From positions 1-64,000 of IMG/VR virus record IMGVR_UViG_3300023179_000054: a DNA stretch of 64,000 nt. One strand, written 5' to 3'. This document shows positions 2,167 through 33,149 of this stretch, in pieces. The position numbers and the translations under genes were made by a program. How positions within the stretch are numbered: the stretch's first letter is position 1; each line of letters opens with the position of its first letter. Below the pieces are notes generated by a model. The model was given only the letters and a program-made list of their open reading frames with translations, made no database searches and was not told where the DNA came from. Origin of the DNA: a virus.

Positions 2167-2174
2167 CTATTTAG
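2167..2174 (-). promoter_or_regulatory. CTAAATAG late-promoter-like motif
   Basis: CTAAATAG on the minus strand overlaps the stop of the halogenase-like gene and opens the 170-base gap before the secreted peptidase. It matches the CTAAATA element used as late promoter in marine T4-like phages, and the same string recurs in other gaps of this window. Confidence 0.35.
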
Positions 2175-3444
2175 TCACCGAGTATTCTCCATTTACAAAT
2201 TTTTCAGGATCAACATTTAAACCTTCAAGATATTGTCTTATGACAGCATTAGGATGTGGTACATAATGTGGATAATCACCTTTACCATTTTTATAATTAA
2301 CATATTGATTACAAAAATCTATCCAATCTGGTTTTTTTAATAAATATTTTATAGATTTATTTTTCGTTATCTTCCAAAAATCACTATACATCATATTACC
2401 AACATAGTTTAATACAATAAGATCAAATAATCTTGAAGAAAGACCGCTATGTAAAGTATTGAGCATTTCTTCAAAAGGTAAATTAACGTTCGTGAATTTA
2501 TTTATAAGTAGATCACTTTCATATTCATGTGTAATGTTATATAATTTTAATAATATATGTCTTGTGAAATAAAAATAATTATGTAATGGTATACCTTGGA
2601 TAGGTTCATAGAAATATAATTTATTACCCATACTTATTATACGGCCGTTGATTGGTTTTTTCACACTATAAGAAGGCCAATATAGTTCTTTAACATTATC
2701 TATTGGTATATCTTTATTTAATTCTTTAAAATGTTTTAAAGCCTCTTCTTTATCGGTTATATCTTTATTATACAGATATCCAAACGCTTTTCTGTTTCTA
2801 GTGTTTATACCAAATTGCCATCCATTTTTATGGAAAAGCACTTCTGTATATGGGTGATTATATTGTTGATGATGTTGGAATAATAATACTGAATTAACAG
2901 TCTCAAACTCTGGAAAATTATACTTACCTGAATTTAATTCTTCTTTTGTCGGAAACCCTCTACAATCAAATAGATAGTCAAATGAATATGTAGCATTTTC
3001 TCCATGCGCTGTAGCAACATTATCGGTTTGAGAGATATGTTTAATATTGTCATGTATTTCTAGTAATCTGTTATCATATATTTCATTAATCCTTTTAAAG
3101 ACAAAATCACTAAATTTTTCGCTACTCATATGCGCGCCTGTACCTACATAATTAATATCAAACATAGAATTTTCATTATTTTCCCATGAATGTCTGGCAC
3201 CTATTCTCAGTATTAGGTCGATTTGCTCATGTTCTTTGATACTATGTTTTAATTTTAAAGCAGTAGATAAACCTCTAAATATACCTGGGCTTAAACTTTC
3301 ACCTATCGACATTTTAGGAATATCAGGATTACTAATAATAGATACTCTTATATCTCTAGAATCCAAGAATTCATTTTCTACACCGAACATAACGGCCGCA
3401 CAAACTGCGGCCGCCGAACCCGTTCCAATAATTCCAATTTTCAT
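2167..3444 (-). CDS. Divergent tryptophan-halogenase-like flavoprotein
   Basis: A 425-residue FAD-binding protein of the tryptophan-halogenase superfamily. The N-terminal dinucleotide motif is G7-T-G9-S-A-A, an altered GxGxxG. It keeps the SIGESLSP segment (halogenase GEAT region), GWQFGI in the position of the WxWxIP motif, and an FYEPIQG segment equivalent to IEPLESNG. Where halogenases carry the catalytic lysine, the best alignment here places arginine or a non-lysine residue, so classic chlorination is doubtful. It follows a small secreted protein gene with a TGATG overlap. It could be a monooxygenase or a halogenase with altered chemistry. Confidence 0.7.
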   Translation of the reverse strand: MKIGIIGTGSAAAVCAAVMFGVENEFLDSRDIRVSIISNPDIPKMSIGESLSPGIFRGLSTALKLKHSIKEHEQIDLILRIGARHSWENNENSMFDINYVGTGAHMSSEKFSDFVFKRINEIYDNRLLEIHDNIKHISQTDNVATAHGENATYSFDYLFDCRGFPTKEELNSGKYNFPEFETVNSVLLFQHHQQYNHPYTEVLFHKNGWQFGINTRNRKAFGYLYNKDITDKEEALKHFKELNKDIPIDNVKELYWPSYSVKKPINGRIISMGNKLYFYEPIQGIPLHNYFYFTRHILLKLYNITHEYESDLLINKFTNVNLPFEEMLNTLHSGLSSRLFDLIVLNYVGNMMYSDFWKITKNKSIKYLLKKPDWIDFCNQYVNYKNGKGDYPHYVPHPNAVIRQYLEGLNVDPEKFVNGEYSVTK

Positions 3445-16106: not shown

Positions 16107-16288
16107 TATGCCACTTCCTTAAAATGCTGTTGTAATTCTGGAGATAATTTCTCTAATATGTGTCCTGGAATACCAACTCTTACTATATTGGCCAATTCTA
16201 CGATGTTATTAGGAGTAATAATATTTTCATCAGGAACAAATTCATATAAACGAGCTGGTGAATGTTTATGTTTATTATCCTTCTTCAT
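16106..16288 (-). CDS. Small hypothetical protein
   Basis: A 60-residue protein beginning with a basic stretch (KKDNKHKH). AAAGGAG lies upstream at a long spacing of about 11. The start overlaps the halogenase stop by 14 bases, and the stop overlaps the GT32 start. Not recognised. Confidence 0.55.
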   Translation of the reverse strand: MKKDNKHKHSPARLYEFVPDENIITPNNIVELANIVRVGIPGHILEKLSPELQQHFKEVA

Positions 16289-17846
16289 AATATATTTTCT
16301 CCTTTAGAATATCAATATGTTCTGGTTCATTCTTAACTAATTCGGCCCAGTAGTCTCTTTTTTTATTCAATCTATTTGCTGCTTTTAAAGCATTTTTATA
16401 AAAATCATTATTGAGTGAAAAAGTATCTAGCAACTGTCTATCTGTTGGGAAAAAATTTGTTCCTGTTGCAACAGCATTTATTCCCGAATCATCAAATTGG
16501 TAATTATTAAATTTCATTTCCGAAACATTTTTAAACGCATCAACATGTGAGACAACATTTAAATTACACATAAATTCTGAATATTCTCTTCTACCTACAT
16601 CTCTCCAATATTCTGTATCATCTCGGTGTGATAAAGCATAATGTAAGGCCACAAATTCCGAAAATCCTTTAAATTGTGTCCTACATGCCAAACTATAAGC
16701 ATCTTTATCAAACTGGCTAACATAACCTTCTGGTTCTCTATCTAATACTCTAATAAGTTTAACTAAAAACATATGGACGCTATAAAGACCATTACTTTCT
16801 AATGGTTCAATAAAACCACCCGAAAGGCCGATAGGTACAACGTTTTTATACCAAAGTCTTTCATAACAACCTACTCTAAACTTTAATTTACGAAAGTTGA
16901 GTTCTCCGTTAAGTAGACCTTTGGATTGTAAATGATCTTTAAATTCTTCCAGAGCGACATCATCATCAATATACTTATCTGAATAAACGTATCCGGTTCC
17001 CATTCTACTCCAAACAGGAGTATTCCACACCCACCCATTACCTATAGCATGACAATCGGTGTATGTTACGAGTTGCTTTCTTTTATCTGTATATGGAACT
17101 TGGACGGCCCATGCCGAATTATTTGGTAGAATTTTTGTTAGTGAAATAAAAGGAACATCCAACTTACTATATAAAACCGATCTGAAACCGGTACAATCAA
17201 TATATAAATCAGCGATAACTTCTTCACCATTATCTAATATAAGTTTTTTAATACCATCTTCGTCTGTATGAATATCTTTAACCTCAGCAAGGATATTTTT
17301 AACACCTTTTGGCATAGCATAATGTGATTTCAACCATAAAGCAAACTGTACCGCATTAAAATGATAAGCACAATCATTATCAAAACTATAGTTAGGAAGT
17401 ATATTATTTTTATCAGAAATTTTATTTTGATTAACAAGTGCCATAATAGGATAAACACAATCAGCATAATCGCTAATAGGTGTTTCCGGATAAAACATCT
17501 TTTTTAAATACCAGTCATTTTTATTATTAAGATTGCCATCAACATTAGTGCCACCAAAAGGATAATGGAATGAACCAGCACCTTTTTTATAGAAATCTGT
17601 AAATCTAATGGAGAGTTTATATGTGGCATCACAATGCTTCATGAAATCTTCATCTTTAATCTCTAACAGTCGTAGCCATTCGTTAATGAAACCTAAGGTA
17701 GCTTCACCAACACCAACTGTAGGAATATTAGGACTTTCTATGAGTGTGATATCTCGACCTTTAAGACGGGCAATAAGAGTAGCAGCAGTCATCCATCCAG
17801 CAGAACCTCCACCAACGATAACAATCTTTTTAATCTGCTTACTCAT
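16275..17846 (-). CDS. FAD-dependent tryptophan halogenase
   Basis: A 523-residue flavin-dependent halogenase of the PrnA/RebH family, which uses FADH2, oxygen and halide to halogenate an electron-rich ring. Visible are GxGxxG (G12-G-G-S-A-G17), GEAT (48-51), the catalytic lysine K77 in ATYKLSI (PrnA K79), the WxWxIP-like motif W272-V-W-N-T-P277, and GFIEPLESNGL. The start at 17846 has GAGG upstream and an ATGA overlap with gp43. A reduced-flavin supply protein is not evident. Marine phage VirX1 is a precedent for halogenation of varied substrates. Confidence 0.88.
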   Translation of the reverse strand: MSKQIKKIVIVGGGSAGWMTAATLIARLKGRDITLIESPNIPTVGVGEATLGFINEWLRLLEIKDEDFMKHCDATYKLSIRFTDFYKKGAGSFHYPFGGTNVDGNLNNKNDWYLKKMFYPETPISDYADCVYPIMALVNQNKISDKNNILPNYSFDNDCAYHFNAVQFALWLKSHYAMPKGVKNILAEVKDIHTDEDGIKKLILDNGEEVIADLYIDCTGFRSVLYSKLDVPFISLTKILPNNSAWAVQVPYTDKRKQLVTYTDCHAIGNGWVWNTPVWSRMGTGYVYSDKYIDDDVALEEFKDHLQSKGLLNGELNFRKLKFRVGCYERLWYKNVVPIGLSGGFIEPLESNGLYSVHMFLVKLIRVLDREPEGYVSQFDKDAYSLACRTQFKGFSEFVALHYALSHRDDTEYWRDVGRREYSEFMCNLNVVSHVDAFKNVSEMKFNNYQFDDSGINAVATGTNFFPTDRQLLDTFSLNNDFYKNALKAANRLNKKRDYWAELVKNEPEHIDILKEKIYYEEG

Positions 17847-20401
17847 GAAAAGAAATCCTCTAAACTTGAGACCTTCTCGGTCTTCCACCCAATACTATCA
17901 AGGATTATTTCGAGAGGGTAAAGAAAGGCCTTCTCGAACTGTGTATCATAATCGATATATTTAGTTAAGGCAAATTCTTCTGGTATGCCGCCTTGAGGGA
18001 AAGAAATAACATTAGATTGAATAGTATTTGGTTCTTTGAGGAAGATAAACTTCAGTTTTTCACCATTCTGAATTAGAGGATACTTTGATGTTAGTCCATT
18101 AGTATTAAGGAAATGGTTATACATGAGAGCACCTCTAACGTGAATGGGAGTACCGCTGCCATAGATGGATCGTTTGTCAGCATACTTAACCAGACCATTA
18201 AGACCACGGGGGAAAGAAATATCAGCAAGTGGTAAAGTTTCGAACTCTTGACGAAATTCTTGTATAAATTGCTGAATAGCATTTTCATCTTTGTCAAAAA
18301 TAACATCAACAGCCTCTCTTAGTTTGTCTCTACATGCTGATGGTGTCGAGGACTTAACCATCTCAAGGCCCATAACTTTCTTTTTAGGTTGAGCATATTG
18401 CACACCTTCTGAGTTATGAACGTTTAGAATATATCTTTTCTTGGCAGTCCAGATTGCCTTATCTGCCAAGACCTCTCGCTTCATTACTATCTTTTGCTGG
18501 AAGACGTTAGTATATTCCCCAAGTTCTCGGCAAGCATTATCAATAACAGGTTGAATTTTATTCTCACAGACCTTATCAAGGAAGGAGATGATGCCTGATG
18601 AATTCCTAACTGCACCGTCTGCGTTAATAGTTTTGTCCACAAGAGGGCCAAGGCGTAGATACACCGAGTCTGTATCGACCGCAATAACATAATCATCCTC
18701 CGTTTTTAATATTTTGTTGAGATACTTATTAATCTCTCCTTCGATCCACCGTATTGACAATTGGCCAGTAGTCGTGACCGCAATCGCATTCCGTAGGTCG
18801 AAGAACCGAAAATACTTAGAACCCAGTGCCCCGTATAACGAGTTGAGCGATACTTTTTTAGAGAGTTGCAAGTTGTTATACCTTGCAATTCGGTTTTTGA
18901 TTTCTTTTCTTTTTTCTTTATCACCTTTTTCTTTTTCATATTCCTGTTCCGCTTCTAACATCTTTTTCTTATAAACTTTACGGTCAGCGAACATCTTCTC
19001 GACCATTTCAGGCATAAACCCTTGTTTATCACGGCGATAGAATTGTCCGTTGGCGGTTAAACAAACATCTTTATTTTTTAACCCAGATAGATCCAACTTA
19101 CGGGCCAATAGGCGATCAACACTAACACCGTCTGAAATAATGCTACGCATAGCATCATCGTAATCAACAGGCTCAATAATTGTTTCAGGAGATATATTGG
19201 ATCCCATAATGACACTAGGATACTCACTATTAACGTCAAAAGAAGCAACCCAATTATGAAATCCATTAATGGTATCCTTAACATAGGCACCCACATATGC
19301 GGCCTCCTTTTCGTGGCGTTCAATTGGTGGAACAACTACATTCTTACCTTTGAGATGATGGAAACAAATAACGTCCCACATTCTAACTTGTGCGAACACA
19401 TCCTCATAATTACATTTGTTATCATAAGATAAGGTAAGGGCCAATTCAATCAACTTATTTTTATCATCAATCTTGTCAACAAGGTCAACGTCTTTAATGT
19501 TATAGTCGATGAACTTTTGATAGTCCTCCTTATACAAGTTCAACAAAGAACCGTATTCTTCATAGGATAGTTTGCGTTCACCAAGTTCAACGTGTGCGAT
19601 ACTATCCAACTTATAGGACTCTTGTGATTTTCCGTCTTTAGCATATCGCTGGTACAAATCAAGCAAATCAAGTGTGGCAATACCTAAAATAGAATAGGAC
19701 TTAATCTTTCTATTCATACCAAGGTCAACCATCTTATCGTTGATTACACCCCACGGAGAAAGTTTCTTGGCCTCATTCTCTCCCATTAGTTTGCGAATAC
19801 GATTGACCAAATATGGTATATCGAAGTTCTGGACATTCCAACCTGTAATGATGTCAGGATATTCTGATTGCCACCAACCAAGAAACTTACGAATAAGATC
19901 AAACTCATCCGCACATTTCATATACGTAACATCATCTCTGCTATTAGAATAATCACCACAACCAAGTGTAGTGAATTGTCCGTCCATTTTAATTGTGATT
20001 GCTGTTAGTGGGCCGTTAGCATGTTCTGGTTCAGGGAATCCACCTTCTGGCGGTTCACCAACCTCGATATCGATGTTGGCCACTTTGATAAGGGACATAT
20101 CCCAATCAACAACACCTTTAAACTCATCGGCAATAAAGCAATATTGATAACGAGTATTACCATAAACTTTAAAGTTCTCAACATTATCATATTGAGAAAC
20201 GAAATCCCGGGCATCTCTAATGTTGCCAGGTTTTACCTTACCAACATAGTCGCCATGAATAGTTTTATATTTTGTGGGGGTCTGTGAAGGCACGAAAAGA
20301 GAAGGGTGATACTCGACTTTATGTCGCACCCTTCTCCCTTCTTCAACACCTCGATATAGAATTCTTCCGCCCCATACCTCAACGTTTGTGTAAAATTTCA
20401 T
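17843..20401 (-). CDS. 43: DNA polymerase gp43 (family B)
   Basis: An 852-residue replicative polymerase with 3'-5' exonuclease. The exonuclease motifs are D111-I-E113, WNVQNFDIPYL, and the YNIKDVDLV motif. The polymerase motifs are DVNSEYPS (A), the NSLYGALG helix (B) and VDTDSVYL (C), with a KKRY segment near the thumb. T4 gp43 is 898 residues. The ATG overlaps the stop of the upstream small gene by one base. Confidence 0.96.
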   Translation of the reverse strand: MKFYTNVEVWGGRILYRGVEEGRRVRHKVEYHPSLFVPSQTPTKYKTIHGDYVGKVKPGNIRDARDFVSQYDNVENFKVYGNTRYQYCFIADEFKGVVDWDMSLIKVANIDIEVGEPPEGGFPEPEHANGPLTAITIKMDGQFTTLGCGDYSNSRDDVTYMKCADEFDLIRKFLGWWQSEYPDIITGWNVQNFDIPYLVNRIRKLMGENEAKKLSPWGVINDKMVDLGMNRKIKSYSILGIATLDLLDLYQRYAKDGKSQESYKLDSIAHVELGERKLSYEEYGSLLNLYKEDYQKFIDYNIKDVDLVDKIDDKNKLIELALTLSYDNKCNYEDVFAQVRMWDVICFHHLKGKNVVVPPIERHEKEAAYVGAYVKDTINGFHNWVASFDVNSEYPSVIMGSNISPETIIEPVDYDDAMRSIISDGVSVDRLLARKLDLSGLKNKDVCLTANGQFYRRDKQGFMPEMVEKMFADRKVYKKKMLEAEQEYEKEKGDKEKRKEIKNRIARYNNLQLSKKVSLNSLYGALGSKYFRFFDLRNAIAVTTTGQLSIRWIEGEINKYLNKILKTEDDYVIAVDTDSVYLRLGPLVDKTINADGAVRNSSGIISFLDKVCENKIQPVIDNACRELGEYTNVFQQKIVMKREVLADKAIWTAKKRYILNVHNSEGVQYAQPKKKVMGLEMVKSSTPSACRDKLREAVDVIFDKDENAIQQFIQEFRQEFETLPLADISFPRGLNGLVKYADKRSIYGSGTPIHVRGALMYNHFLNTNGLTSKYPLIQNGEKLKFIFLKEPNTIQSNVISFPQGGIPEEFALTKYIDYDTQFEKAFLYPLEIILDSIGWKTEKVSSLEDFFS

Positions 20402-22456: not shown

Positions 22457-23632
22457 ATGAAAAAACTTGCTATTATCGGTCGAGGAACAGCTGGATCTTT
22501 GGCCGCTGCACATTTCCTTAGACATACTGATTGGGAAATAGACTGGTATTTTGATAATGATATTAAACCTCAGGCCGTTGGTGAAGGTTCTAATTTAATT
22601 CTTCCTAATTTTTTAAAAAATTGTTTGAATTTTGAACACCATGATTTATCAAAAATTGATGGTTCTTTTAAAGCATCTATATATAAAGAAGGTTGGGGAA
22701 AAGGTCAAGGATTTCATCATACTTTTGCTCCGCCACTTTTATCATACCATTTTAATGCTAACAAATTACAAGATTATATATTATCTTTAGTTAGAAGTAA
22801 TCCAAAACTAACAATCAAAGAGCAAAATATAATTCATGATAATATAGACTCCGATTTTATTTTAGATAGTTCAGGTCGTCCAAAATCTTACGAAGAATTT
22901 CATTTATCAAAATATATTCCGGTAAATTCAGTCCATGTAAACCAGTGTTATTGGGAATATCCAAGATTTCAATATACTTTAACAATTGCCAGACCATATG
23001 GGTGGGTCTTTGGCATACCTTTACAAAATAGGTGTAGTATTGGATATATGTATAATAATAACATAAACACTCTCGAAGAAGTTAAAGAAGATATAAAACA
23101 TATTTTCACTCAGTTTAACCTTGTACCTAGCGACCAAACAAATACTTTTAGTTTTAAAAATTATTATAGGAAACAAAATTATAGCGAAAGAATATGTTAT
23201 AATGGTAATGCATCTTTTTTCTTAGAACCTATGGAAGCAACATCAATAGGAATGATGCAAGTTATAAATAAATGGTCTCTTGACTTATTTAACGATATCT
23301 CAAATATTGATATTATCAATTATAGATATTATACAGTTAACAAAGAAATTGAATCTGTAATTATGCTACATTATTTTGCCGGATCTATTTACGATACAGA
23401 TTTTTGGAAATTTGCCAAAGAGAGAGGTGAAAAGTGTATGTTGGATTCTTTAACACAAAAAAAATATAAACTTGATAGATCATTTCATGAAATGTTAAAT
23501 GATGTTGATAATAATAAAAGGTTTGAAGGATTTGGAACTTGGAATAAAGAATCATTTAAGCAAAATATAGTAGGTCTTGATGTTAGAGAAAATCTTGATA
23601 ACTTAATTAATAATACAATTATAGGAGAATAA
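22457..23632 (+). CDS. Tryptophan-halogenase-like flavoprotein
   Basis: A 391-residue flavoprotein on the plus strand. It has the dinucleotide motif G8-R-G10-T-A-G13, VGEGSN (halogenase GEAT region), a conserved lysine K72 in GSFKASI aligned with the PrnA catalytic lysine, WVFGIP near residue 182 as the WxWxIP motif, and FLEPMEATSIG as the C-terminal binding motif. It is shorter than PrnA-type enzymes and nearer to the small halogenase-like phage proteins. It leads the only plus-strand block, followed by the spanin pair. Confidence 0.8.
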   Translation: MKKLAIIGRGTAGSLAAAHFLRHTDWEIDWYFDNDIKPQAVGEGSNLILPNFLKNCLNFEHHDLSKIDGSFKASIYKEGWGKGQGFHHTFAPPLLSYHFNANKLQDYILSLVRSNPKLTIKEQNIIHDNIDSDFILDSSGRPKSYEEFHLSKYIPVNSVHVNQCYWEYPRFQYTLTIARPYGWVFGIPLQNRCSIGYMYNNNINTLEEVKEDIKHIFTQFNLVPSDQTNTFSFKNYYRKQNYSERICYNGNASFFLEPMEATSIGMMQVINKWSLDLFNDISNIDIINYRYYTVNKEIESVIMLHYFAGSIYDTDFWKFAKERGEKCMLDSLTQKKYKLDRSFHEMLNDVDNNKRFEGFGTWNKESFKQNIVGLDVRENLDNLINNTIIGE

Positions 23633-26703: not shown

Positions 26704-28146
26704 TTATTCTCCGTTCTTTAGATATATATGATTGCCTATAACAGCACAATCTAAACTTGTAGTTTTAAGTAATTCTACTACCGTTTCAGGATGACCTGCT
26801 ATAGGTTTGCCCGCTAAGTTTAAACTGGTATTTAATAACACAGGACATCCAGTTAATTTATAAAATTCCTCCAACAGTTTTCTAAAAATAGGATTTTTAT
26901 CACCAACCGTCTGCACTCTACAAGTTCCGTCTATATGAGTTATTGAAGGTAGTATATCAGATTTTAATCGACATGTAAAGAGCATATATTCGTCTTCCCA
27001 TTCCATATCGAAATAATCTTTTGCATATTCTACCAAAACGGAGGCACCAAAAGGTCTGTAGTTTTCCCTATTTTTTATTCTATTAATTATTTCTTTACCA
27101 TTAGGAATTCTTGGGTCCATAAGTATAGAACGATTTCCTAATGCCCTTGGGCCTATTTCTCCATGACCTTGATACCAGGCCACAGTTTGTCCTTCTGATA
27201 ATTTTTTAGCAATAAGTGATATAGTTTCATCTGTAGGAATATCGGAAGGAGAAATATCATTTTGCATATATGGAAATTGCGACATATCAAACATAGAAAG
27301 ATTATGTTTTTGTCTCAAATATTCAAGACATCCTAAACTCAAACCTTCATCACAAGAATGTGGTGCAATATATAAATTTTTAAAATGTTTTTTCAAAGTG
27401 GTATTCCACACTACATTTTGTGCTACACCTCCGGAATAACCAATAACATCATCTGGAGAGGCGAATTTTGAGAAAAGTTCTAATAATAATTCTTCAATTC
27501 TAAGGTGAATAGTCCTCAACCAATTGATTTTGGTGAGTTCGGAAACAAGATTATCACCTTTATAATTTATCCAACTATTATAGTTAAATATGTCGTTTAT
27601 ATTATACATATCATATTTTCTTAAAATATTCAAATATTCTTGATCAATAGTTCCATAAGATTGCAATCCCATCGCCTTACTGGCAACATCTACATTCAGA
27701 AGAGATTTAATATTTAAAGTTGTTCCGGCATTCATCATTCCCCATCCTATAGATCCGTTTTCTTTATTACCATGACTTATAAATTTCCATTTATTTTTTT
27801 TATCGAAAACAGACCATGTTTTATGATCACCTATACCATCTATAACAAAAGACACATCAGGAATTTTACCTATTAATGGATAAACACTTAAAGCATGTGC
27901 ATAATGATGATGTATGATTTGACAATTTAATTCTAATAAAGGACCATTACATGTTGCAATATCATCCATTTCATTAAATGAAATGTTCCAAAGGTCTTTA
28001 AGTTCATTTTCAAAATCACTAAAGGTTTTGAAACTGAACCTTTTTATATCTTTTGTTCTTTCAAATTTATGAAATCTTACAAATTTACCATCATAATAGG
28101 AGACACTATGATCATGATGAGTTAAACTAATACCTAATAATTTCAT
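26704..28146 (-). CDS. NodU/CmcH-type carbamoyltransferase
   Basis: A 480-residue protein of the carbamoyltransferase family that adds a carbamoyl group to a sugar or other alcohol using carbamoyl phosphate and ATP. It begins LLGISLTHHDHS, has the HHHYAHAL metal-binding block near residue 79, FVIDGIGDH, the CDEGLSLG and GEIGPRALGNRSIL motifs and ENYRPFGASV. Typical NodU proteins are 550-600 residues, so this is compact. Such genes occur in cyanophages. Target could be a glycan made by the locus at 33-44 kb. Confidence 0.87.
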   Translation of the reverse strand: MKLLGISLTHHDHSVSYYDGKFVRFHKFERTKDIKRFSFKTFSDFENELKDLWNISFNEMDDIATCNGPLLELNCQIIHHHYAHALSVYPLIGKIPDVSFVIDGIGDHKTWSVFDKKNKWKFISHGNKENGSIGWGMMNAGTTLNIKSLLNVDVASKAMGLQSYGTIDQEYLNILRKYDMYNINDIFNYNSWINYKGDNLVSELTKINWLRTIHLRIEELLLELFSKFASPDDVIGYSGGVAQNVVWNTTLKKHFKNLYIAPHSCDEGLSLGCLEYLRQKHNLSMFDMSQFPYMQNDISPSDIPTDETISLIAKKLSEGQTVAWYQGHGEIGPRALGNRSILMDPRIPNGKEIINRIKNRENYRPFGASVLVEYAKDYFDMEWEDEYMLFTCRLKSDILPSITHIDGTCRVQTVGDKNPIFRKLLEEFYKLTGCPVLLNTSLNLAGKPIAGHPETVVELLKTTSLDCAVIGNHIYLKNGE

Positions 28147-28669: not shown

Positions 28670-28957
28670 TTAGGCTTTGTGTATAAACTGCTTTTTCTGT
28701 TCAACAGTCCACTCTTTGAGATAGTCGTTCTCCTTATCAAACATTTTTAGGTATTCTTCTTCGGTAATCTCACGATGAGAGAATGTATCCTCTGCGATAT
28801 GATGTTGTGCGAACTCTTGCAATCCATTTTCTATACCACCAGTAGCATGACAAACTATATCATCAAGGGCATACTCAATAGGATCTTCATCTCTTAACTC
28901 TATGGCATACATATGACGAAAAGTGGATACGGTTTCTACTAATACAATCTTAGGCAT
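28670..28957 (-). CDS. Hypothetical protein
   Basis: A 95-residue acidic protein (MPKIVLVETVS start) with beta-alpha pattern and C-terminal helix. Similar short acidic proteins are common in T4-like phages. Not identified further. Confidence 0.65.
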   Translation of the reverse strand: MPKIVLVETVSTFRHMYAIELRDEDPIEYALDDIVCHATGGIENGLQEFAQHHIAEDTFSHREITEEEYLKMFDKENDYLKEWTVEQKKQFIHKA

Positions 28958-28958
28958 T

Positions 28959-29738
28959 TTATATCTCCGCTATTAGAACAGGATCAACCAAACTTCTTTC
29001 ATTAGGATATCCAAACGGATTACACACAACTCTTGTATTGAATATCTTGTAATCAAAAGCATTATGTGTATGCCCATGTATCCATAGTTTTACATTATCG
29101 GTCATCATATGCTCCAGATCAGAAGCATATAGTGTATTCAGTTCTTTATCATTCGCATACTTTTCATGAATACTTTGCCATGAGGGAGCATGATGTGTTA
29201 CGACTACACAAGGTTCAGTTATCTCCTTTTCTAGGTACATTCTAGAAAGGACGTGTTCAATATAAGCGTCCTCCGGAGTAAACTTACGATAGTTGTCTTT
29301 AGCATCACAATACTTGATGACATTAAAATCATTCATGGCAAACCTTAGTTTGTTGATCGTCAATGGATTTTCAATATCAACCTCTGTCCAAAGCGAACAA
29401 CCAACAAACTTTACACCATCAATAACGATACTTTCTTTATCAAGAAAATGTAGGTTCTTATATTCCGACAATCCTTCACGAAGAATAGAGGCAGTCTTGT
29501 TGAATGTACCTTTATAGTGTTCATGGTTGCCCATAATATAGATTACATTCTTGAAGTTGGTACAGACCTCATCAAAGAACCTGTAATATCCAACATTGTT
29601 TATATTACGTTCTTTATTTTTGAATGCCTTAGCAATACAAATATCACCAGCCAACACCAGCACATCTGCACCAGCATTAGGAATATGGACGTCATGACCA
29701 AACTCAAGATGAAGGTCTGATGCGATCTGTATCTTCAT
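28959..29738 (-). CDS. Calcineurin-like metallophosphoesterase
   Basis: A 259-residue phosphoesterase with the family's metal motifs in order: SDLHLEF (DxH), LAGDI (GD), MGNHEHY (GNHE), VTHHAPS and HGHTHNAFDY (GHTH). These bind two metals for hydrolysing phosphomono- or diesters. The start at 29738 has GAGG six bases upstream. It is distinct from gp47 (62884) and the LpxH-like protein (34426). The substrate is unknown; a nucleic acid or nucleotide end group is possible. Confidence 0.85.
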   Translation of the reverse strand: MKIQIASDLHLEFGHDVHIPNAGADVLVLAGDICIAKAFKNKERNINNVGYYRFFDEVCTNFKNVIYIMGNHEHYKGTFNKTASILREGLSEYKNLHFLDKESIVIDGVKFVGCSLWTEVDIENPLTINKLRFAMNDFNVIKYCDAKDNYRKFTPEDAYIEHVLSRMYLEKEITEPCVVVTHHAPSWQSIHEKYANDKELNTLYASDLEHMMTDNVKLWIHGHTHNAFDYKIFNTRVVCNPFGYPNERSLVDPVLIAEI

Positions 29739-30105
29739 AATATTCCTCAATTAGTTTCTTACAGCGTTTCTTCCAGTCGTTTCGCTGCCATGATGCTTTG
29801 TCGTGCGATAGTTCATGGTAATCGTTGGCGATAAACTCCACGAGTTTTTTAAACTTTTCTAACTCTGCGATGCGCTCATACGGGTCTTGCTTAAACAACT
29901 CATCAGCAGCAACGACAGCACGACCATTTTCCGACTGCCAACATCCCTCCTCTGCCATAATGCCTATAGTGCGTTGGCCGATACACAGCGGCACTTCCAA
30001 CTCCGCAATCCGTTTTGCTTGAGCCTCAATAGCGTCGGCTGCTTCTATCATAGTATGACTTTGACTAGATCGTAAAAGATCAATCAACTCTTTGTGATCA
30101 GTCAT
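29704..30105 (-). CDS. Ea22-like coiled-coil protein
   Basis: A 133-residue helical protein with the A-A-D-A-I-E-A-Q-A-K-R-I-A-E-L-E block (residues about 22-37) and a second RIAELEKF block, shared with several neighbours to 31.9 kb. It resembles Ead/Ea22-type phage proteins, which assist phage takeover but lack a firm function. The start at 30105 overlaps the upstream gene by 8 bases. It is the leftmost member of the cassette array. Confidence 0.65.
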   Translation of the reverse strand: MTDHKELIDLLRSSQSHTMIEAADAIEAQAKRIAELEVPLCIGQRTIGIMAEEGCWQSENGRAVVAADELFKQDPYERIAELEKFKKLVEFIANDYHELSHDKASWQRNDWKKRCKKLIEEYYEDTDRIRPSS

Positions 30106-30301
30106 TCTCTTTACCCTTTGGATCATACACACTTTTATACCAGTTTGTGTAATCTGGTTTGGTCATATAGTCTCGTAACACTATCTCAATAGCCGCACAG
30201 ACACCATCCTCTTCTGGGTTGTTTAGCATAATCTCATAATATCCTTGTAAGTCCTGAACAACTATTCCAGATAGCATAGCATCATCTAGTTCTATTTTCA
30301 T
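30098..30301 (-). CDS. Small conserved phage protein
   Basis: A 67-residue acidic protein. The C-terminal part (AIEIVLRDYMTKPDYTNWY) matches the pattern of the gene at 31075 (AIDLLINYYSTNDQFQEW), so they are paralogues. Its Shine-Dalgarno GGAGAG is part of the relic of an Ea22-like C-terminus just upstream. Confidence 0.65.
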   Translation of the reverse strand: MKIELDDAMLSGIVVQDLQGYYEIMLNNPEEDGVCAAIEIVLRDYMTKPDYTNWYKSVYDPKGKEND

Positions 30302-30363
30302 TTTTTCTCTCCTAATACCTTACGGGCGGTGTTAGCAGCCCCAAATGATAAATCGTATGGCGG
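30298..30363 (-). pseudogene. Relic of an Ea22-like gene end
   Basis: A 21-codon open tail after an in-frame TAG reads ...ARKVLGEKK and stop, identical in its end to the gene at 30710. The rest of that gene is absent. It is a remnant of a duplicated cassette and now supplies the ribosome binding site for the gene at 30301. Confidence 0.6.
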
Positions 30364-30445
30364 CTAACCATATTGTGAAATAGAAAATTGTCGGGACTAT
30401 CCCAAGATAAAACAAAGTTTCAACTAGCCAGTTAAGCATAAACAT
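30332..30445 (-). CDS. Tiny membrane protein, tentative
   Basis: A 37-residue mostly hydrophobic frame (MFMLNWLVETLF start) beginning inside the end of the preceding Ea22-like gene and overlapping the relic. It may be a real membrane peptide or just the filler left by cassette loss. Confidence 0.35.
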   Translation of the reverse strand: MFMLNWLVETLFYLGIVPTIFYFTIWLAAIRFIIWGC

Positions 30446-30713
30446 CTTTTTTCTCCAATACTTTACGGACGGAACATATAACACTGGCAATTTGTGGACT
30501 TACATACAGCGTATTTATTGCCATTAACGGCTTTAGTGCCGCTTCTAACTCTGCGATGCGGGAGCATAGATGTAAGTTTTCTTTACCCAACTTGTCTGCT
30601 TTTATTGCTGTTTCTGCGGCAAATCTTGAAAGCCATGCAGGGTTAGACATGGCAATGGATATGGAGGATTTACTCGTAATGTCGTCAAGAAACTTTTCAA
30701 TCTCATCAGTCAT
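30432..30713 (-). CDS. Ea22-like coiled-coil protein
   Basis: A 93-residue protein with a unique N-terminal half (MTDEIEKFLDD start) and the shared SRIAELEAALKPLM block and V-R-K-V-L-E end. The ATGACTGA start overlaps the upstream stop, and the GGAGAG ribosome site lies within the VLGEKK codons of the upstream gene. Confidence 0.65.
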   Translation of the reverse strand: MTDEIEKFLDDITSKSSISIAMSNPAWLSRFAAETAIKADKLGKENLHLCSRIAELEAALKPLMAINTLYVSPQIASVICSVRKVLEKKDVYA

Positions 30714-31078
30714 TTCTTCTCTCCTAATACTTTACGGGCTTGATTAAAATACATTAGCTCAAACATAACAACATCATCTTCTTCTGCTCTCGGCTTACAA
30801 TAAGCATATCTTTCTGCCACCTCAGCAAGCGGATTTAACGCTGCTTCTAGCTCTGCGATGCGGGCGTCAAGTCGTCCGGCTTCTTTGATGTATTCATCAA
30901 CGAATTGGGCTGTCACTTCCAACTCCGCAATCCGCTTTGCTTGCGCCTTAATAGCATCAGCGGCTTCAAGCGCATCGTTTGGATCAACCGTGGGTGCACA
31001 TTCCGCACACTCCAGTGTATCTCGGGCGGCAATACCATCACGGCGCAATCGTTCCACAAGGTCTGTATATTCTTTCAT
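30710..31078 (-). CDS. Ea22-like coiled-coil protein
   Basis: A 122-residue protein. It starts MKEYTDLVERLRRDG and has the longest version of the shared architecture: L-V-E-R-L-R, a Cys-containing loop, ALEAADAIKAQAKRIAELE, a second RIAELEAALNPLAE and the ARKVLGEKK end. The start at 31078 has GAGGG and an ATGA overlap. It is the best reference copy of the array. Confidence 0.7.
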   Translation of the reverse strand: MKEYTDLVERLRRDGIAARDTLECAECAPTVDPNDALEAADAIKAQAKRIAELEVTAQFVDEYIKEAGRLDARIAELEAALNPLAEVAERYAYCKPRAEEDDVVMFELMYFNQARKVLGEKK

Positions 31079-31320
31079 TTCTTTTCCCTCAAGTTCATCT
31101 TCTCTACTATCCACTCTTGGAATTGGTCATTAGTAGAATAGTAGTTTATCAAAAGGTCAATAGCATTTAGCAGTTCATCATCCGGAGGAATCGTCTCATC
31201 CGAGCAATCATACTTATCAGGCATACAGTTGAGACGATAGGCGTCTTTTAGTGACTCCAATGTGATTTCATCTTTTTGGTCGGTGTTTAGTTCAATATTC
31301 AGATCAACGGTCACTTTCAT
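31075..31320 (-). CDS. Small conserved phage protein, paralogue of 30098
   Basis: An 81-residue acidic protein (MKVTVDLNIEL start) with a C-terminal helix pair ending in W-I-V-E-K. GAGG is upstream of the ATG at 31320. It is interleaved with Ea22-like genes and is related to the gene at 30098 by the D/N-YY/M-x-Q/Y-W pattern. Confidence 0.6.
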   Translation of the reverse strand: MKVTVDLNIELNTDQKDEITLESLKDAYRLNCMPDKYDCSDETIPPDDELLNAIDLLINYYSTNDQFQEWIVEKMNLREKK

Positions 31321-31321
31321 C

Positions 31322-31600
31322 TTATTCATCCTCATCTTGGAATGGTATTGGTCTTAGAGTGTCCTGTGCCTTCATTAGTATCTCAGAAAGGGCCATACGG
31401 TATTTAAAACCATCATCCTCTAACTTAGCAATATGGTCGTTATTTTCTCTTATCGTTTTGAGTGCTTCACGCATACGGCCTTTCCAAAAATCTATTTCTG
31501 CTGCTTGTGTCTCAATAGTGTCGGCGGCTTCTCCAAGCATTTTCATTCCGCTTGTAGTATGTCCAAGGCGCAGTCGTTCAAGCAATGGTATGTCAGTCAT
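31322..31600 (-). CDS. Ea22-like coiled-coil protein
   Basis: A 92-residue protein starting MTDIPLLERLRLG, with EAADTIETQAAEID replacing the canonical ADAIEAQAKRIAE block. It begins with ATGACTGA overlapping the upstream ARKVLGDKE stop. Its C-terminus is unrelated to the other copies. Confidence 0.65.
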   Translation of the reverse strand: MTDIPLLERLRLGHTTSGMKMLGEAADTIETQAAEIDFWKGRMREALKTIRENNDHIAKLEDDGFKYRMALSEILMKAQDTLRPIPFQDEDE

Positions 31601-31854
31601 TCCTTGTCTCCCAATACCTTACGGGCGGCGCGTATGTCATCGCAGTTCAACGCCCACTCATAAATAACGCCATGGTCATCCTCTTGAAGAACAGGAGTTA
31701 CATTTGCAAACGGTTTCAGCGCCGCCTCTAGTTCAGCGATGCGGTTACGGCAATCAATCAGCAATTCCCGCACAGCTTCATGGTTAGCCAGTTCTGGATT
31801 GAACAGGCCGCCGCTGGAGAGATAACCCGATATGCGTTCTAGTTCGTCAGTCAT
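31597..31854 (-). CDS. Ea22-like coiled-coil protein
   Basis: An 85-residue protein (MTDELERISGYL start) with RIAELEAALKPFANV and the ARKVLGDKE end. The start at 31854 is set by GGTGGG and an ATGA overlap. It heads the Ea22-like run. Confidence 0.65.
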   Translation of the reverse strand: MTDELERISGYLSSGGLFNPELANHEAVRELLIDCRNRIAELEAALKPFANVTPVLQEDDHGVIYEWALNCDDIRAARKVLGDKE

Positions 31855-32129
31855 TTCTTTTCCCACCATGTTATCTTTGGATTATGAAACTCGTATGCCT
31901 GAACCAACTGCTCTGTCGTCCATATTTCAGGAGTAGTGAAGTTTCCTTCAAGCCATCTTGTAAATCTAATCCAATCTTTGTTTTTCATCATACCCAGATT
32001 CAATTCGGTATATTCTGGAACATCATCACCATATACATCAATACGACCAGCACACCAGTCTTTACCATTTTCTTTGATCCATTCAGAATTGACTGGACCC
32101 ATCCAGTTTGTGCTATAATGAACTTTCAT
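31851..32129 (-). CDS. Conserved phage protein
   Basis: A 92-residue, Trp-rich protein (HYSTNWMGPV start, WCAGRIDVYGD block, ending in the NPKITWW segment). I recall similar short proteins in many enterobacterial and marine phages as conserved hypotheticals. AAGGTGG precedes the ATG. Confidence 0.65.
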   Translation of the reverse strand: MKVHYSTNWMGPVNSEWIKENGKDWCAGRIDVYGDDVPEYTELNLGMMKNKDWIRFTRWLEGNFTTPEIWTTEQLVQAYEFHNPKITWWEKK

Positions 32130-32140
32130 CGTGCCACCTT

Positions 32141-32533
32141 TTACTTTTTCTTACCAACATCTTCAAGATTTGTGCCGTCGGTAATATACTGATATGGACC
32201 CTTAGAATAAAGAGGGGCAGTCCTGGCCGCTTTGGCCAAGATCGCTTCCTGGACATGCTGAGGTTCTTTGTGTAGATTGGCCATAACACCACGTTTGGCA
32301 CAGGCATACTTAGTACCTTTAATACCTGTGGAAACATAATCTGACCGATCTACCTTTAGAACCTCAGCACATTCTTTTATACTATTAACCGCTTTACGCT
32401 TTTTAGGCAATTGTGATATATGAAGGCCAATGGACTTTAACCACGCCTCATGTTCTCTCGCAGACTTGGAAGGCTTGCGGGCCTTCCGTTTACGCAAGTT
32501 AGTTGTGGTATAATAAACAGGCAATAAAGGCAT
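32141..32533 (-). CDS. Basic conserved phage protein
   Basis: A 130-residue strongly basic protein with N-terminal LRKRKARKPSKSAREHEAWLKSIG, then a CAEVL and a GIKGTKYACAKRGVMANLH segment. The Lys/Arg content suggests nucleic-acid binding. The start at 32533 (GAGG upstream) gives a TAATG overlap with the Api92-like gene. Confidence 0.65.
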   Translation of the reverse strand: MPLLPVYYTTTNLRKRKARKPSKSAREHEAWLKSIGLHISQLPKKRKAVNSIKECAEVLKVDRSDYVSTGIKGTKYACAKRGVMANLHKEPQHVQEAILAKAARTAPLYSKGPYQYITDGTNLEDVGKKK

Positions 32534-33078
32534 TATTGTTCCTCTGTGTTTTCTTCCTGATATTCTTTCCAAAACTCATATTCACTTTCCAATTCCTCGG
32601 CAAGGTGCTCTGGTAAATGATCTCGCCATTCATCATCGGCAAAATCATAATCATAACATTCATCAACACCGTCGGAATACTCACCGATAAAACCCATACC
32701 TTCTTCACGGTAATCGGCAGATATAGAAAAACCCAACTCTTCCATCTTTTTATAGAAAGCAACAGGTGGGTTCCATGCGGTATCAAAACCTAGGTCAAGT
32801 TCCTTAGGAGCATCAAGGTTGATAAACCCGTTTGAAACATCCCACTTGGTACCCCAGTTTTCGAGGCAGAAGCTATACCAATCAGTATAACCGTGTTTCT
32901 TTACGTTGTCAATTTGTTCCGGCGTATCACCACCAACATCGGCATTAATACACAAATCCTTAGGAATAGGAACAAACTCGTCAAATAAACGGCCATCCTC
33001 AAATGCCTTTTTGGCACGGGAAATCATGGCCGGATCTTTATGTGATAGGGAGAGATTATTAGAACACCAATTAGGCAT
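32533..33078 (-). CDS. Api92-like / DUF1281 family protein
   Basis: A 181-residue protein starting MPNWCSNNLSLS, the signature of the DUF1281/Api92-like phage family with a ferredoxin-like fold. It has an FVPIPKDL strand, LENWGTKWD and a very acidic C-terminus. Known from many phages and prophages without assigned role. It is the first gene after the promoter at 33104-33132. Confidence 0.8.
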   Translation of the reverse strand: MPNWCSNNLSLSHKDPAMISRAKKAFEDGRLFDEFVPIPKDLCINADVGGDTPEQIDNVKKHGYTDWYSFCLENWGTKWDVSNGFINLDAPKELDLGFDTAWNPPVAFYKKMEELGFSISADYREEGMGFIGEYSDGVDECYDYDFADDEWRDHLPEHLAEELESEYEFWKEYQEENTEEQ

Positions 33079-33103: not shown

Positions 33104-33132
33104 ATTATAACACAAGGAATATGCGGTGTAAA
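33104..33132 (-). promoter_or_regulatory. Sigma70-type promoter
   Basis: TTTACA (33127-33132), 17-base spacer, TATAAT (33104-33109), upstream of the Api92-like gene. Confidence 0.7.
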
Positions 33133-33149
33133 TGCGACATATTGTCGCA
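33133..33149. repeat. Perfect inverted repeat next to -35 box
   Basis: TGCGACA-TAT-TGTCGCA, a 7-bp inverted repeat with a three-base centre, directly upstream of the -35 box of the Api92-like promoter. It could be an operator or the stem of a terminator for the gene to the right. Confidence 0.45.

Follow-up and report, generated by a model that had tools for sequence, protein, structure and literature searches.

Mosaic coiled-coil mini-genes and a putative portable translation junction in what is probably a variable operon segment of a T4-like phage

The row of small genes on the minus strand of the window, the 64,000-nucleotide stretch of viral DNA analysed here, is probably a variable segment within the operon of a T4-like phage, where small helical mini-genes are acquired, deleted and recombined with one another. 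The encoded E proteins are mosaics built from N, coil and C modules that can replace each other. Most exchange points sit at a short RIAELE-coding stretch of DNA, and the 3' ends that the E genes have in common hold a GGAG ribosome site positioned for the start of any following gene. Recombination or annealing at repeats of 15-40 nt, perhaps via phage recombinases, could generate deletions, duplications and swaps, of which selection would retain the in-frame products. Because the shared ends would double as the start signal of the next gene, modules could be swapped with the row left unbroken.

The source virus record comprises 92,407 bases, of which the window is the first 64,000. A profile search of the full record (G000) detects a gene for a gp23-type major capsid protein (G000:69813-70937; PF07068, E 1e-142), on which the assignment to T4-like phages is based; no HK97-type capsid (PF05065) was found among 30 records searched. 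With gene calls from our own simple caller, the minus-strand order is A, B, C, E1, E2, S2, E3, E4, M, relic, S1, E5, P, F, and the genes, coil blocks, relic and operon-start elements placed between 28670 and 33149 all lie on this strand. Genes A (32533-33078; synteny in L024, L021 and L061), B (32141-32533; synteny in most relatives), P (28959-29738; a metallophosphoesterase, PF00149 1e-10 and phrog_1649 8e-56) and F (28670-28957; 40 relatives in viral contigs) are conserved flanks. A carbamoyltransferase-like ORF (26704-28146) adjoins the array, and the window also holds three flavin-dependent halogenase/monooxygenase-like ORFs (2167-3444, 16275-17888 and 22457-23632) and many glycosyltransferase- or 2OG-oxygenase-like ORFs, all judged by eye from motifs.

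The initial annotation had placed five coiled-coil genes at 29704-31854, sharing a RIAELEAAL block and ends of the form ARKVLG(E/D)K(K/E) with ATGACTGA. Five E genes are present, together with S1 and S2: E1 (31597-31854), with the intact junction end ARKVLGDKE; E2 (31322-31600), with the C-module ..LRPIPFQDEDE; E3 (30710-31078), a mosaic mini-gene with the junction end ARKVLGEKK; E4 (30432-30713), with the decayed junction RKVLEKKDVYA; and E5 (29704-30105), which overlaps S1 by the 8 nt of ATGACTGA. Their uniformity had been overstated. The RIAELEAAL block occurs in E1, E3 and E4, and the corresponding residues are HIAKLE in E2 and RIAELEVPL in E5; the complete end with ATGACTGA is limited to E1 and E3, that of E4 having decayed and E2 and E5 ending otherwise. 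The similarity extends beyond the protein level, at which alone it might have been expected in the absence of exchange, to repeats in the DNA. A 54-nt block (D1) coding EAADAI.AQAKRIAELE at 30914-30967 has a copy at 29992-30045 (89%) and a weaker one at 31478-31531; a 39-nt block (D3) coding RIAELEAALKP at 30825-30863, the main exchange point, has copies at 30523-30561 and 31706-31744 (77-79%); and the 34-nt junction repeat (D4) shows 82-88% DNA identity. The junction 17-mer CGTAARGTATTRGGAGA has three copies in the window, all within the array, against 0.04 expected.

Viral contigs, which are metagenome assemblies, were scanned with genes C, F and S1, an E alignment and the junction pattern, giving more than 100 loci, some overlapping, in a sample fetched largely by the RIxELE[AE]AL motif and the junction pattern and so biased toward members having these. 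An iterative profile yielded 139 distinct E-type proteins. The flanking genes are constant among relatives, and the E genes vary in how many there are, how they are arranged and what they are made of: the order is A B E E E2 S2 E S1 E5 P F in L024/L026, A B E S1 x F in L061, B E S2 F in L020, B x C S2 F in L006, C S1 S2 B in L008, and A x B S1 x x F, without any E gene, in L021. The cassette shuffling proposed at the outset, with which a copy number and order fixed in all relatives would be at odds, is in this respect borne out. Gene C (31851-32129; phrog_18736) is mobile inside the variable region; it retains 88-90% identity in L003-L008, yet the gene orders there differ. The most E-type genes per locus, at least 13 in about 6 kb, are found in L092 (3300042861_000607), where they are interleaved with unrelated small genes having the same junction.

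Carriers of the array include phages with unrelated terminases. Window positions 20000-44000 gave no DNA match in phage records, nor did the E3 protein give any there, and another array member matched two spring-water records only. The record L146 (MW202613, Manatee Spring) is a complete circular 43-kb myovirus with an integrase gene and contains a match to the E-type C module, so that temperate phages may carry E genes. A scan of genome contigs returned one partial match, in Sphingopyxis, and searches of Pfam, PHROGs and NCBIfam with the E proteins gave weak coiled-coil-type matches only.

Across the 139 proteins, the same modules (N, middle and C) turn up in varied combinations. A strict test for reassortants, in which the N half is common to one protein and the C half to another, the N-half partner differing in the C half and the C-half partner in the N half, identified 10 of the 139 E-type proteins and none of 661 control proteins with homologues; since E-type sequences are related and non-independent, P values for such comparisons come out too small. 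Proteins with a shared N and a different C half numbered 22 in the E-type set and 2 in controls, and those with a shared C and a different N half 43 and 0. Of 90 breakpoints, 66 lie at the RIAELE coil block, against 27 expected. E3 is itself a mosaic: nt 1-155 resemble L027/L085 (83%) and nt 217-359 resemble L121 (88%). The C-module of E2, a gene with 83% DNA identity to L024:8001-8279, occurs on other N-modules in L020, L019 and L061, and in L027:4880-5236 an N module of the E3 type is fused to a C module of the S2 type (92% to the S2 of L029). Most detectable exchanges fall inside genes, at the RIAELE block, so that halves of proteins are shuffled in addition to complete cassettes. In L081:6264-6653, an E2 homologue carries an insert, CERCGW...CRNC, with two zinc-ribbon-like CxxC pairs between two coil blocks.

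One recent fusion is resolved to the base, and L112 gives a second case. L106:5321-5656 equals L092:780-1346 identically through a 17-nt repeat and then equals L092:1339-1698; relative to L092, 583 bp between the 17-nt repeats are missing and two neighbouring genes are fused in frame, the flanks being 100% identical over the stretch shown. The frame is kept, although 583 is no multiple of three, since the repeat is translated into an identical peptide in either gene. A gene of L112 combines the 5' half of L111:5404 with the 3' half of L111:6001, each at 90% and overlapping across the block, in a backbone of 96% identity. Both cases come from assemblies, and assembly error is unlikely since the repeats are short. 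Another candidate deletion pair, L099/L116, was dropped because L116 ends too soon.

It is improbable that plain tandem duplication and divergence, with one ancestral gene copied in place and the copies drifting without exchange of halves, produced the array. The copies are adjacent, on the same strand, with blocks and ends in common, as such a history predicts; the reassortants, the exact fusion in L106 and the match of the two E3 halves to different foreign genes are not accommodated by it. These discordant halves refute duplication as a full account, and it remains a part of the history. A more serious proposal, though still on the unlikely side, is that breakpoints arise at random and selection keeps joins within the coil, others being unfolded, so that the shared DNA reflects protein constraint and marks no recombination site. 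Clustering of breakpoints could indeed stem from selection for such joins instead of targeted recombination: the block is strongly conserved in protein, and dN/dS stays under 1 in the comparisons made, at 0.16-0.93 in E modules and 0.11-0.20 in flanks A, B, F and P, which suggests that E modules are mostly constrained, less so than the flanks. However, the sole event of near-zero divergence switches inside a perfect 17-nt DNA repeat, synonymous sites included.

The second element of the proposed system is the junction, which had been described as serving both as C-terminus and as translation signal. Support for this double role comes from the occurrence of GGAG in the last 24 nt of 100 of 125 coupled E genes, against 166 of 633 coupled controls, and from the non-E genes that follow E genes, which fall into 34 families. 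Near the end of E proteins, 63 of the 71 coupled Gly-Glu/Asp pairs use GGAGAx, while GGA accounts for 26% of glycine codons in the bodies of E genes. A start of the ATGA(C/G)TGA type (or equivalent), with stops in both other frames, is found in 79 of 129 E genes (61%) and in 106 of 1327 others (8%); 46 of 56 MT(D/E) starts have ACT as their second codon, compared with 23% of Thr codons in gene bodies. As ATGA(C/G)TGA has a TGA in both other frames, the upstream gene is closed whether it overlaps by 4 or by 8 nt, and in the window ATGACTGA occurs in both registers, with a 4-nt overlap at C/E1, E1/E2 and E3/E4 and an 8-nt overlap at S1/E5. Taken together, the junction appears to be a portable translation signal. 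Uncoupled E starts also retain the octamer (6 of 6), so inheritance alone could account for part of its conservation, and other genes here also often begin with ATGACTGA (ACT is used in 25 of 42 MT[D/E] starts), so that frame neutrality may in part be incidental.

S1 (30098-30301) and S2 (31075-31320), which had been singled out as small paralogues, are related to each other, remotely, through phrog_37819, a family of no assigned function (E 7e-4 and 1e-5, respectively, in a profile search). M (30332-30445), a putative membrane-like ORF of 35-37 aa, tiny and hydrophobic, lies between E4 and the relic, and its start signal comes from the decayed end of E4 (GGAG, about 9 nt, ATG). A relic of a lost copy had been proposed at 30298-30363; a junction of 29 nt, 93% identical to the E3 end, does lie at 30299-30327, with a reading frame open to about 30363, and its sequence would now provide the ribosome site and the ATGA start of S1. 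Where the window has this relic, L024 keeps an intact E gene (L024:8523-8726) directly before S1, which suggests that the copy was lost or replaced in the lineage of the window.

These observations bear on the proposal, which we consider unlikely, that a C-terminus containing a ribosome site is the usual outcome of 4-nt overlaps in a compact phage operon and has no special portability. Such overlaps are common enough, with ATGA in 237 of 1260 control pairs and GGAG at the frequency given above for coupled control ends, and coupling by termination and reinitiation is well known (PMC6728339). Against this stand a rate threefold higher in E genes, the similar 3' DNA before the 34 non-E families and the relic, retained only as the start signal of S1. 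The E array shares with ATGA-type translational coupling the stop-start overlap and the ribosome site within the upstream coding sequence; it differs in that the signal recurs as a unit at many pairs of neighbouring genes that are not homologous, and that both other frames are closed by stops.

Promoter-stem-loop cassettes (PeSLs) are reported, in work cited in PMC4503421, to mediate shuffling in T4-like phages. A consensus scan places a sigma-70-like promoter (TTTACA-17-TATAAT, 33132-33104; 11/12 bases plus TG) beside a stem-loop at 33133-33149, before gene A, and this pair (33104-33149) is likely to be the operon start. The adjacency of a palindromic stem-loop and a near-consensus promoter recalls the promoter-stem-loop units of T4-type phages. 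The phage type and this pair would suit an explanation of the locus by known PeSL shuffling; the explanation is nonetheless very unlikely, since the exchanges lie inside genes. The early promoter and stem-loop expected at shuffled borders form one pair only, at the operon start: within the array no inverted repeat reaching 12 nt was found and promoter- and terminator-like sites are as numerous as expected by chance, and promoter-like sites across the whole region likewise total the chance level. PeSL shuffling and the E array have in common a T4-like genome, small accessory genes and short shared border sequences as the means of shuffling, but the shared sequences of the E array are protein-coding (coil block, C-terminus), with no promoter or stem-loop beyond chance inside it.

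The E genes had initially been called Ea22-like, a name that the profile searches do not sustain: the window proteins and nine members of set A2 gave no match to PF13935 (cut-off 27 bits), nor did 19 array-bearing records give any above the cut-off, and lambda Ea22, as positive control, matched at 1e-28. A profile comparison of E with PF13935 aligned 14 coil columns at a probability of 15%. The resemblance is one of layout and end signal only. Both families have a short N part, a central coiled coil with KRIAELE and a variable C part, lie in an early accessory region with differing neighbours, and encode the next gene's ribosome site at their 3' end (KGE = AAA GGA GAG in Ea22). They differ in that each lambdoid locus fetched has one Ea22 gene, whereas E genes occur in arrays, and in that the Ea22 starts seen are without the dual stop. 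On the C-terminal (K/R)GE of Ea22 the comparison points both ways: E proteins end in GEK(E/K) or similar, a different peptide with the same coding of a ribosome site. The three-part layout with a central coiled coil is seen in the predicted structure of E3 (helices 2-21, 33-93 and 100-117; mean pLDDT 84, pTM 0.56), modelled as a helix of 60 residues flanked by two short ones; this is a general resemblance only, and a fold search with the model gave no match at E 0.001 or better.

All Ea22 proteins are reported to end in (K/R)GE, a feature whose significance is stated as unknown (PMC7093339). The lambdoid sample consisted of lambda (J02459, L147/L148) and L149-L160, Shiga-toxin phages, which also carry Ea22, being left out. 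The last 24 nt of ea22 are near-identical, GGCATTCGCATCAAAGGAGAGTGA, in lambda, HK022, P7, phiv142-3, SF3, Gally and E212, seven phages with different sequences after this common end. In all of these except lambda, an ATG one base after GGCATTCGCATCAAAGGAGAGTGA opens several different reading frames. At the same place AAGGGGGA is present in P22-pbi and MG40, and HK140, Kapi1 and D6 retain a GGAG-type site with altered peptides. Since near-identical ea22 ends precede different reading frames, the '+GE' end is probably, and most simply, the ribosome site of the next gene. In lambda no ATG follows at once, and the signal there may be a leftover.

It seems possible, and is put forward tentatively, that the array is a combinatorial protein-diversification system, in which the in-gene blocks and the frame-neutral junction were selected for swapping, and that the same principle operates in lambdoid Ea22 loci. 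Selection would keep blocks and junction because modules and whole genes could then be swapped without loss of translation. Our best guess for the E proteins is that they are early-made coiled-coil oligomers whose variable ends contact host proteins, in which case variety would be favoured. The assembly of proteins from exchanged fragments has been treated for phage proteins in general (PMC10684548, where a word search finds no mention of Ea22); for tail tape measure proteins no genuine recent mosaicism could be confirmed there, partly because of long repetitive coiled coils, whereas the E array has a recent event resolved to the base. At the level of single bases, the array may show concretely how new small proteins arise in the accessory regions of phages, with short coding repeats giving in-frame fusions and a portable end giving the next gene its start. 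It would also provide a testable answer to the open '+GE' question of PMC7093339, namely that these codons are chosen for a ribosome site and not for a protein motif.
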